Positions 16,628 through 31,472 of a stretch of 38,022 bases of DNA are shown here, in pieces. The stretch's first letter is position 1, and each line of letters starts with the position of its first letter. Source of the stretch: Candidatus Rokuibacteriota bacterium (GTDB taxonomy: Bacteria > Methylomirabilota > Methylomirabilia > Rokubacteriales > CSP1-6); the NCBI GenBank assembly GCA_003221635.1, contig QHSR01000243.1:1-38022 (forward strand), written 5' to 3'. A program made the position numbers and the translations under genes. A model generated the notes under the pieces. It was not told the DNA's origin. It saw nothing but the letters and a program-made list of their open reading frames with translations, and made no database searches.

Positions 16628-17110
16628 TCAGCTCCTCCGGCCGGCCGCGGCGCCGGCGGTCTCGGTGATCGCGGCTAGCATCTTCGTGTAGCCGGTGCAG
16701 CGACAGAGATTGCCGGCGATCCCGTAGCGGATCTCTTCCTCGGTCGGATGCGGGTTCTCCGTCAAGAGCGCGGCGGCGGCCATCAGCACGCCCGGGATGC
16801 AGAAGCCGCACTGGGGCACGCCGTGGCGGACGAACGCGTCCTGCAGCGGGTGCAGCGCGCCCGGACGCCCGAGTCCTTCGATCGTGAGCACGGCGTGGCC
16901 ACGAGCCTGCATGGCGAGCAGGAGGCAGCTCGCGATCGGCTTACCGTCGAGGTGCACCGTGCAGGCGCCGCAGTCGCCGGTGCCGCACCCTTCCTTCGGC
17001 CCCGTCAGGCCCATGCGCTCCCGCAGGGCGTCCAGCAGAGTGTCCCAGGGCTGAACCAGTACCTCGGCCGACTCGCCGTTTACCGTGCAGTTCAGAACTA
17101 GCTTCGCCAC
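16628..17110 (-). CDS. Molybdenum hydroxylase small subunit, two [2Fe-2S] clusters
   Basis: The protein has 160 residues from GTG 17110, with GAGGGGATC upstream. The plant-type ferredoxin domain carries C42, C47, C50 (GCGTGDCGACTVHLDGK) and C62. The all-helical second domain carries C101, C104 (PQCGFCIPG), C136 and C138 (NLCRCTGY). All eight cysteines expected for the family are present. It passes electrons from the molybdenum centre of the large subunit to the FAD of the medium subunit. It ends four bases before the large-subunit start, so the pair is coupled. A repeat-rich 148-base spacer separates it from the FAD subunit gene upstream. Confidence 0.95.
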   Translation of the reverse strand: MAKLVLNCTVNGESAEVLVQPWDTLLDALRERMGLTGPKEGCGTGDCGACTVHLDGKPIASCLLLAMQARGHAVLTIEGLGRPGALHPLQDAFVRHGVPQCGFCIPGVLMAAAALLTENPHPTEEEIRYGIAGNLCRCTGYTKMLAAITETAGAAAGRRS

Positions 17111-17128
17111 GTCTGATCCCCTCTTTTT

Positions 17129-17255
17129 ATAGGCTCGCCTCGCACGCGGGGGCCCGAGCCCCCGGCCGTGCTGCGGCTCGCACTGCCACTTTCATAGGCT
17201 CGCCTCGGCCGGCGGGGCCCCAGCCCCGCGACGGCTTGCGGCTCGCACTGCCACT
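17129..17255 (-). repeat. Two tandem copies of a hairpin-containing repeat
   Basis: Copies lie at 17129-17190 and 17194-17255, 65 bases apart, each about 62 long. The ends are almost identical (ATAGGCTCGCCTCG at the left, CTGCCACT at the right). The centres differ but each forms a strong hairpin: on the minus strand GCGGGGC-TGGG-GCCCCGC in one and GGGGGC-TCGG-GCCCCC in the other. GCGAGCC occurs on both sides of the hairpin. The block sits between the FAD-subunit and iron-sulfur-subunit genes of one operon, directly 5' of the latter. Confidence 0.8.
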
Positions 17256-17258
17256 ACA

Positions 17259-18125
17259 TCACGCGCTCGCACGGGCGAGCGCGGTGGTCAGGGTGCGACG
17301 CGTCAGGACACGAACGAGATGACGGCGGAACTCGGCCGAGCCACGCTGATCGCTGATCGGGCGCGCGACCTCCACCGCGAGGTCGGCCGCGCGCGCGATC
17401 CGATCGGGCGTCACCGGTTGGCCCTCGAGCGCCTGCTCGGCCGCCGTCGCGCGAACCGGCACCGGGGCCACGGCGGCCAGCGCGATCCGGGCCTTCGTGC
17501 AGACGCCGTTCGCCAGCGTGAGCTGCGAGGCCACGCCCACCACGGCGATGTCGAGCTCGCGCCGCGGCGTGTGCCGCAGATAGTTGCCGCCGCTTCGCGG
17601 CCCGGGGGCCGGCACGACCAACTCCACGAGCAGCTCGTCCGGGGCCAGCACCGTGCGCCGGACCCCGGTGAAGAACGCCGCGATCGGCACGCGCCGCTCG
17701 CCCTTGGGGCCGGTGATCACCGCCTCGGCGTCGAGGGCCAGGAGCGGCGGCGCCATGTCCGCCGACGGCGCCGCGTTGCAGAGGTTGCCGCCGAGCGTCG
17801 CCAGGTTGCGCACCTGCACCGAGCCCACGAGGGCGCCGCTCTCGGCGAGCGAGAGATAGCGGGCGCGGACGGCGCGGTCGAGCTCGAGCGTCCGGGCCGT
17901 CACCGCGGATCCGATCCGCAGCCCCTGCCCGTCCGCGGGCTCGATGGTGCGCAGCCGCGCCACGCCGGACAGATCGATCACGCGCGCGGGCTTGAGCAGG
18001 CCGTTCTTGAGCTGCGGCAAGAGGTCCGTCCCTCCCGCCAGCAGCTTCGTCTCGGGCCCGCGCTGGGCGAGGGCCCGCACACAGTCGTCTACGCTCTCGG
18101 GGAGGACGAGCTCGAATCGTCGCAC
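17259..18125 (-). CDS. Molybdenum hydroxylase medium (FAD-binding) subunit
   Basis: I chose GTG 18125, which has GGAG about 8-11 bases upstream and starts VRRFELVLPESVDD in register with the family; a TTG at 18152 would add nine residues. The protein then has about 288 residues, normal for CoxM/XdhB-type subunits. FAD motifs are LLAGGTDLLPQLKNG near residue 30 and TLGGNLCNAAPSADMAPPLL near residue 110. The C-terminal CO_deh_flav_C domain occupies about 170-285. It transfers electrons from the iron-sulfur subunit to an external acceptor. It is the first gene of the M-S-L operon and is divergent from the dehydrogenase operon at 18337; a promoter with a palindrome lies in the gap. Confidence 0.93.
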   Translation of the reverse strand: MRRFELVLPESVDDCVRALAQRGPETKLLAGGTDLLPQLKNGLLKPARVIDLSGVARLRTIEPADGQGLRIGSAVTARTLELDRAVRARYLSLAESGALVGSVQVRNLATLGGNLCNAAPSADMAPPLLALDAEAVITGPKGERRVPIAAFFTGVRRTVLAPDELLVELVVPAPGPRSGGNYLRHTPRRELDIAVVGVASQLTLANGVCTKARIALAAVAPVPVRATAAEQALEGQPVTPDRIARAADLAVEVARPISDQRGSAEFRRHLVRVLTRRTLTTALARASA

Positions 18126-30852: not shown

Positions 30853-31173
30853 CTACTGGATGACCGAGTGCGGCGTCGCCACCATGCGCGTGACCTTGAT
30901 CTGCTCCCGGTCGATCAAGGTTGGGACTCTCGGGGAGATCTCGTTCTTCCAGTAGTCGCTCTGGTACACGAGGTCGTAGAGGCGCTTGCGCTCCTGCTCG
31001 TTCTCGAATCGGCGGATCCAGACGTAGACGCTCTCGTCTTCCTCGCCGACGAAGCTGCCGAGGATCACCATTCCCATCTTGACCTGGAACGGGATGATCT
31101 CCTCCTCCATGCACTTGACCCACTTGTCACGCTGACCCGGACGGATGTGGTACTGGCGCAGCTCAAAAAACAT
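30853..31173 (-). CDS. NIPSNAP-family small protein
   Basis: ATG 31173 with GAGGAGGCCGG upstream gives 106 residues, the single-domain length of bacterial NIPSNAP proteins. The family signature is clear: FFELRQYHIRPGQRDKWVKCMEEEIIPFQVKMGMVILGSFVGEED, then VYVWIRRFENEQERKRLY. These have a dimeric ferredoxin-like a+b barrel fold and sit next to oxidoreductase or hydrolase genes, but their role is unclear. The gene is upstream of the LLM gene at 29754. Its leader contains two tandem copies of the hairpin repeat at 31182-31313; the ribosome site is in the first copy. Confidence 0.9.
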   Translation of the reverse strand: MFFELRQYHIRPGQRDKWVKCMEEEIIPFQVKMGMVILGSFVGEEDESVYVWIRRFENEQERKRLYDLVYQSDYWKNEISPRVPTLIDREQIKVTRMVATPHSVIQ

Positions 31174-31181
31174 TCCGGCCT

Positions 31182-31313
31182 CCTCGAATTGGAATCGCGC
31201 CTCGGTCGGCGGGGCCCCAGCCCCGCGACGACCTGCGGCGCGCACCACCTCGAATTAGAGTCGCGCCTCGGTCGGCGGGGCCCCAGCCCCGCGACGACCT
31301 GCGGCGCGCACCA
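31182..31313 (-). repeat. Two tandem copies of a hairpin repeat related to that at 17129-17255
   Basis: Two 66-base copies (31182-31247 and 31248-31313) differ at only three or so positions. The centre on the minus strand is GCGGGGC-TGGG-GCCCCGC, the same as one copy at 17194-17255, and flanking GCCTCGG and GCGACG sequences match too. The shared core is about 50 bases. The block is directly upstream of the NIPSNAP gene and includes part of its ribosome site. Confidence 0.8.
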
Positions 31314-31472
31314 CCTGGGCTCGGGCCCCGATCAGCGGCCCGGCGCCCAAAGGGTATACCACGGCCCGCGTCCTCGGGAGCGTGTATGATCCTGTCCCGG
31401 GTGGGCCAAGGCGACGGCGGAGAGCACGCGTCGTTTCCTGCACGAGTACTATCGCGCCAGGCGGGGGGCTCC

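Follow-up and report, generated by a model that had tools for sequence, protein, structure and literature searches.

The window analysed here, i.e. the whole stretch of 38,022 nucleotides, carries at 17123-17252 on the minus strand two head-to-tail hairpin repeats of about 65 nt each, located between a CoxM-like and a CoxS-like gene. These hairpins belong to a family of small hairpin repeats in the uncultured bacterial group Rokubacteria that is mobile, has many copies and had not been described before; a literature search for such repeats in Rokubacteria returned nothing relevant. On the whole, we put the probability at roughly 0.84 that the block represents two units, arranged head to tail, of a mobile hairpin family behaving like the GTAG-tagged REPs. 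Comparison of related genomes indicates that the repeat is a mobile element and not a cox-specific regulator, and a dedicated switch of the cox subunit ratio is unlikely because the cox site is not conserved.

Table 1. Features of the repeat block at the cox junction and of the second array in the window
Feature	Coordinates	Strand	Details
Repeat copy A	17123..17187	-	covariance-model match, 65 positions, 77.6 bits, E 7e-16
Copy A layout	17123..17187	-	tag GGCAG, then hairpin, then tail CCTATAAAA
Copy A core GTGCG..GAG	17134-17183	-	minus-strand reading 17183-17134 = GTGCGAGCCGCAGCACGGCCGGGGGCTCGGGCCCCCGCGTGCGAGGCGAG
Copy A apical hairpin	17147..17164	-	arms 17147-17153 and 17158-17164, CGGGGGC/GCCCCCG; loop 17154-17157 TCGG
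Copy A middle helix	17142..17171	-	arms 17142-17146 and 17167-17171, GCACG/CGTGC; two-base bulge 17165-17166
Copy A outer helix	17133..17181	-	arms 17133-17139 and 17175-17181, GCGAGCC/GGCGAGC; central tandem G·A/A·G
Repeat copy B	17188..17252	-	covariance-model match, 82.9 bits, E 3e-17
Copy B layout	17188..17252	-	tag GGCAG, then hairpin, then tail CCTATGAAA
Copy B core	17199-17248	-	minus-strand reading 17248-17199 = GTGCGAGCCGCAAGCCGTCGCGGGGCTGGGGCCCCGCCGGCCGAGGCGAG
Copy B apical hairpin	17212..17229	-	arms 17212-17218 and 17223-17229, GCGGGGC/GCCCCGC; loop 17219-17222 TGGG
Copy B middle helix	17208..17235	-	arms 17208-17211 and 17232-17235, GCCG/CGGC; two-base bulge 17230-17231
Copy B outer helix	17198..17246	-	arms 17198-17204 and 17240-17246, GCGAGCC/GGCGAGC
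Upstream gene, CoxM-like (FAD subunit, CO/xanthine-dehydrogenase-type molybdenum hydroxylase)	17259..18125	-	PF00941 and PF03450
Downstream gene, CoxS-like [2Fe-2S] subunit	16628..17110	-	PF01799 and PF00111
Second array, copy adjoining gene	31185..31249	-	85.0 bits; 'GC' type, middle helix GGTCG/CGACC
Second array, distal copy	31251..31315	-	86.5 bits
NIPSNAP-family gene, downstream of second-array copy 31185-31249	30853-31173	-	

Each unit folds into three stacked helices, namely an outer helix, a middle helix of about five pairs and an apical helix of seven base pairs, with a two-base bulge and a four-base loop; the outer helix has the general form GCG[A/C]GCC/GGCG[A/C]GC (Table 1). The initial annotation had described two minus-strand hairpins with differing arms and four-base loops at this place, and both are indeed present; its apical stem was right, but this was the only part seen of the three helices in each copy. 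The pair at 31182-31313, which it had taken for further copies, is of the same family, with covariance-model matches at 31185-31315. The genes flanking the block are CoxM-, CoxS- and CoxL-like. From the stop codon of the CoxM-like gene to the outer stem of copy B there are 12 nt, and the GTG start of the CoxS-like gene lies 22 nt past copy A's outer stem; AGAGGGGA occupies this gap. Taken singly, each window copy folds slightly better than its dinucleotide shuffles (z -0.3 to -1.5), the margin being small because the DNA is so GC-rich; the evidence for pairing therefore comes from many copies compared with one another.

A single 65-nt query gives 61 matches in the window's genome, and the covariance model R1, built from 39 copies, gives 79 copies there (E<=1e-4, stricter filters), its weaker matches being mostly partial relatives. 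The 78 copies analysed for context occupy 59 sites, 43 of them single, 13 double and three triple. All 16 multi-copy arrays are head-to-tail, and the copy list of this genome holds no close opposite-strand neighbours and no head-to-head or tail-to-tail dimers. Called genes read through the repeat at only 6 of the 59 sites, with genes called by a home-made codon-usage caller, by which individual gene contexts may be wrong. At E<=1e-6 the model is matched in 43 of 60 genomes of the order, and within the genus all nine genomes carry the repeat, in 32 to at least 87 copies each; no matches are found in 21 genomes from other orders of the class. In a scan of public genomes, all 80 stretches among the matches listed come from Candidatus Rokubacteria/Rokuibacteriota.

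A pattern made from the ends only (GTGCGMGCC ... AGGCGMG) occurs at 73 places, against 10 for a reversed control pattern, and it reveals that common ends carry several inner modules. The main one is the GCGGGGC type, to which copy B of the window belongs. Copy A has the GCACG-GC-CGGGGGC module, found also at C38, C155 and C266 of the window's genome; a GGGC..CGGGGGC module occurs at C21, C55, C93, C125 and others, while short modules with shared ends and cores of about 34 nt form arrays at C71, C257 and C18. The window copies, whose differing arms the initial annotation had called compensatory, are thus not one hairpin changed in place but two subtypes standing side by side, each with copies elsewhere. 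As shown by comparison of the copies, inner hairpin parts are swapped between subtypes, with tag, outer stem and tail being kept. At C71:41481-41761 of the window's genome, G000 (L099 2482-2762), five 56-nt tandem units of a short sister subtype form a longer array and share with the window repeat only the tag, the outer stem and part of the tail, and at G000 C107 (L100 2427-2555) three related 41-nt tandem units, TGATGGCAGTGCGAGCCGCAGCCGCAGGCGAGGCGAGTCTG, have the same ends with a minimal interior.

The pairing is kept across the family. Of five pairing measures computed on the 39 copies, four are reached by none of 500 shuffles and the fifth by a single one, and every slid register pairs worse than the true one. 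For 89 copies from other genomes, two-sided changes are found at 11 of 18 pairs and in 77 cells, where shuffles give 16 and none of 500 comes as high, in an alignment that was fitted to the covariance model and so leans towards the structure. About half of the copies have a tandem G·A/A·G mismatch in the outer stem, and in the rest both A are replaced by C, giving a fully Watson-Crick stem. These positions, about 45 nt apart, are coupled: in 170 distinct copies the combination is A/A in 79, C/C in 88, C/A in three and A/C in none. On the strand read here, G·T wobbles number 55 against 15 A·C mismatches, with about 20 of the 55 coming from one pair and thus partly from shared descent. Tandem G·A pairs of the sheared kind are stable in RNA as well as in single-stranded DNA, and on the opposite strand they would read as tandem C·T. 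The tandem G·A and the excess of G·T over A·C therefore suggest that it is the fold of the mRNA-sense strand that is kept.

Covariation over many copies and genomes thus supports selection for the pairing of the hairpin, as the initial annotation had suspected. A covariance-model search of related genomes, as it had proposed, yields many copies with many two-sided changes. It had named two findings that would speak against the idea, namely loss of pairing in related copies and confinement to assembly artefacts; pairing is kept in related copies elsewhere, and copies stand at different sites in independently assembled genomes. The slight folding margin of single copies would suit an assembly artefact or chance palindromes in GC-rich DNA, but many copies at different sites in independent assemblies, the covariation and the clean empty sites described below leave this explanation practically no probability, and the cross-genome data have already refuted it.

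The empty sites come from the repeat-free flanks of sites in the window's genome, which were searched in eight congeners and then aligned. The orthologous sites are mostly empty: 0-16 nt separate the stop codon from the Shine-Dalgarno. This holds for all congeners aligned at C282 (7 of 7), C81 (5 of 5), C327:35089 (5 of 5), C71 (4 of 4) and C326:31061 (6 of 6, one of them with a repeat-derived remnant of the right end). The insertion extends from about GG[T/C]NG through CCTATGAA(CTG), and no target-site duplication is consistent between empty and filled sites in these alignments. As for the cox site, the same two genes stand in G004 and G007 without any insert, G006 has an unrelated spacer of about 30 nt, G002 has one copy with the middle stem GGGCG/CGCCC, and G005 has two copies with the middle stem GATCG/CGATC. 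Lineage-specific insertions and empty orthologous sites support a REP/MITE-like selfish repeat, which had been the second suggestion of the initial annotation.

In G008 (L171/L142) the cox site is GGCAG-CCTCTGAAAGTGGCAG-CCTAAAG, which reads as a remnant of both units, their hairpins probably lost at the stem base with tag and tail left behind. Lineage-specific presence could partly be due to repeated deletion of the kind suggested by this remnant. General precise excision at the stem base, hinted at by the G008 cox site and by C81 in G004 and G002, was rejected, as a scan of 1.4 Mb gave only the G008 case; the same 1.4 Mb contain no direct-repeat slippage products.

In each unit the G[T/C]NG tag is followed by a T, then by the irregular hairpin and finally by an A-rich tail, CCTATGAA. 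The base use of the left tag in 139 copies is G 98%, then T 58 and C 28, then A 47, G 23 and C 18, then G 99, i.e. the second and third positions are degenerate; the tag can supply a TAG stop codon. On the right, a Shine-Dalgarno-like motif is recognised in 57 of 130 flanks, beginning 6-11 nt past the stem in 44 of the 57. Between co-directional genes the repeat mostly lies in the gene sense, with 21 sites against 6 in the window's genome, 56 against 11 in other genomes (p 2e-8), and 40 against 8 in a second, partly overlapping set of other genomes. In other genomes it lies a median of 9 nt from the upstream stop and 23 nt from the downstream start. Divergent and convergent sites number 21 to 6, compared with 81 to 62 in the intergenic background, where divergent gaps are also longer. 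Within divergent regions the repeat is nearer the downstream start in 4 of 8 and 7 of 13 cases in one count and in 11 of 14 in another, which gives no clear bias; therefore the placement rule rests on co-directional gene pairs. The genes concerned are not only cox, as the family stands before unrelated genes. In related genera (stretches L053, L076, L101, L119 and L120), several copies begin directly at the CAT (reverse-complement start codon) of a divergent gene, reading CATGGCAGTG or CATGGTAGTG, and the left tag may have a target preference of its own.

We compare the repeat with the GTAG-tagged REP superfamily on the basis of the sections of Di Nocera et al. 2013 (PMC3733652) drawn on throughout. 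There, GYAG, GYRG, GTRG and GTMG variants are described, stems are mostly 6-9 bp and 12-13 bp at most (in GTAG-24), unpaired GA occurs in the long-stem GTAG-24 elements, G-T pairing is noted, head-to-head and tail-to-tail dimers prevail with head-to-tail ones rare, and the distance to the downstream ORF varies. Like these REPs, the Rokubacteria repeat is short, palindromic and mostly intergenic, with copies in the tens to hundreds (here 79 copies; 59 sites), and it has an irregular stem with complementary changes, a TAG stop, and an unpaired GTAG-like end tag immediately 5' of the hairpin, whose degeneracy the definition in these sections allows. However, the stem of the main subtype is longer, about 18 bp in three helices and outside the 6-13 bp with a short loop (short subtypes also exist); the arrays are head-to-tail only, without the usual dimers; the unit lies near both the previous stop and the next start codon; it is strongly co-oriented with operons; convergent sites are few and exceeded by divergent ones, the reverse of the REP pattern in these sections; and no RAYT is found in the host genus. 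Rokubacteria are not among the host groups of GTAG REPs named in the same sections. Since the tag, stem and TAG stop fit while the long stem, arrays, co-orientation, start closeness and missing RAYT do not, the repeat is REP-like and is not filed under REP/RAYT.

A MITE, which has terminal inverted repeats with target-site duplication, does not fit, since no duplication is consistent between empty and filled sites, and the hairpin is followed not by the T run of an intrinsic terminator but by CCTATGAA, often then a Shine-Dalgarno. A riboswitch or known RNA was rejected on the absence of any Rfam match at gathering cut-offs, with nothing meaningful at E<=1. The CGTC-tagged REPs, in the sections of PMC3733652 used here, lack a dedicated transposase and have stems of 8-9 bp that almost always begin with AT pairs; the main Rokubacteria subtype likewise has CGTC directly before the apical palindrome, but inside the hairpin and not at an unpaired end, and the other subtypes do not have it. 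The E. coli REP/BIME (PMC8266576) also has a strand-specific imperfect hairpin with stem mismatches directly after GTAG; there, TnpA-REP is present and the GTAG tolerates no substitution, in contrast to the degenerate tag here, with no TnpA-REP found. In position, the nearest analogue is the TAACTGA direct repeats of marine Beggiatoaceae (PMC4679880), which are likewise many dispersed sets in forward orientation just upstream of the starts of genes without common function. Those are heptamers without a hairpin that overlap the ribosome-binding site, whereas the Rokubacteria repeat is a hairpin and stops before it.

The Pfam family Y1_Tnp detects RAYTs. With positive controls, no RAYT/Y1 transposase (Y1_Tnp, PF01797) is found in any of the nine genus genomes, which agree on this absence, the window's own assembly being 89% complete. 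Across the order, 11 of 60 genomes have Y1_Tnp, the repeat being scarce or absent in most of these, and most repeat-rich genomes are without it. None of 16 Y1 loci of the order has a real repeat beside the Y1 gene (REPtron); the best match nearby has E 0.008 and lies in unrelated sequence. The enzyme that usually mobilises REPs is therefore not resident in the genomes with the most copies. It is somewhat unlikely that the repeat is a classical REP moved by a RAYT (Y1/HUH transposase) since lost from the genus or acting from elsewhere: the GTAG-like tag, the irregular stem and the tag-supplied TAG stop would agree with this, as would the Y1 proteins in a few other genomes of the family, but insertions are recent in a genus with none of nine genomes having Y1_Tnp, Y1 genes are not flanked by the repeat, and head-to-head or tail-to-tail dimers are missing from the copy list. 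Autonomous copies with a gene between two repeats were also considered and rejected, the intervening genes looking like ordinary metabolic or transport genes from their translations.

Comparison shows that units insert past one gene's stop codon and ahead of the next gene's Shine-Dalgarno with no obvious target duplication, usually with the folding strand as the mRNA strand, and that each insertion is specific to a single lineage. In the mobile reading that we prefer, an enzyme would recognise the folded single strand while the unit is copied, and pairing would be kept through replication success because of this recognition; tandem arrays would come from local duplication. A bolder version, in which this REP-like family spreads without a RAYT, another enzyme taking the folded mRNA-sense strand, as ssDNA or RNA, for its substrate and insertion being aimed at the Shine-Dalgarno region, so that hairpins would be systematically installed between operon cistrons with coupling altered, is decidedly tentative and, taken whole, quite unlikely. 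Within an operon, the unit would be transcribed and would part two previously near-adjacent cistrons, with a stable hairpin placed about 20 nt ahead of the next start codon. In the window, the insert turns a near-adjacent cox gene pair into one about 150 nt apart with two hairpins between. The loss of translational coupling or the protection of downstream mRNA by an operon hairpin is plausible in general, and here either may arise as a by-product; a side effect on operon expression is possible, given that the hairpin sits inside the operon with the mRNA-sense orientation. The predicted accessibility of the start region is unchanged among the natural, insert-free and shuffled-insert forms (48 sites, p 0.42), which rules against insulation of the Shine-Dalgarno by the hairpin.

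These observations bear on two functional alternatives. The family might once have been mobile and now be kept as a general intercistronic insulator, breaking translational coupling or protecting the downstream cistron, with useful orientations retained. Strong co-orientation, tight Shine-Dalgarno spacing and the pairing bias to the mRNA strand would fit, but the sites are not conserved between species, though useful insertions often should be, start accessibility is predicted to be unchanged, and the orientation bias can also come from the choice of Shine-Dalgarno targets or from purging of harmful orientations; we regard this as unlikely. Far less probable is a cis-acting RNA regulator selected at this very place, which by processing, attenuation or stability would set the CoxM:CoxS:CoxL ratio. 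It can draw on the same strand and orientation, with the position between stop codon and Shine-Dalgarno, but it has to face the members before unrelated genes, the same predicted start access with the insert, and the lack of an Rfam match. The subunit-ratio element proposed by the initial annotation finds no support at the cox site itself, which is empty in G004 and G007, has an unrelated spacer in G006 and a remnant in G008, and in G002 and G005 holds copies that differ in number and type.

Among small bacterial repeats the REPs have been studied best, and explanations of how they spread invoke RAYT transposases almost exclusively, with the CGTC class, lacking a transposase, as an acknowledged gap. 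The Rokubacteria repeat offers recent insertions with clean empty sites in a genus with no detectable RAYT, together with a strong rule of placement in the order stop codon, hairpin, Shine-Dalgarno, start. The family is a natural test case for other movers of hairpin repeats, and for the effects of insertions on operon coupling in a large group of uncultured bacteria from soil and groundwater. In addition, at G000 C69:25075-25139 the insertion goes with the loss of the first codons of the downstream frame, which are kept in congeners (AACTTCGACTTC...), and the downstream start codon may have shifted in position there.
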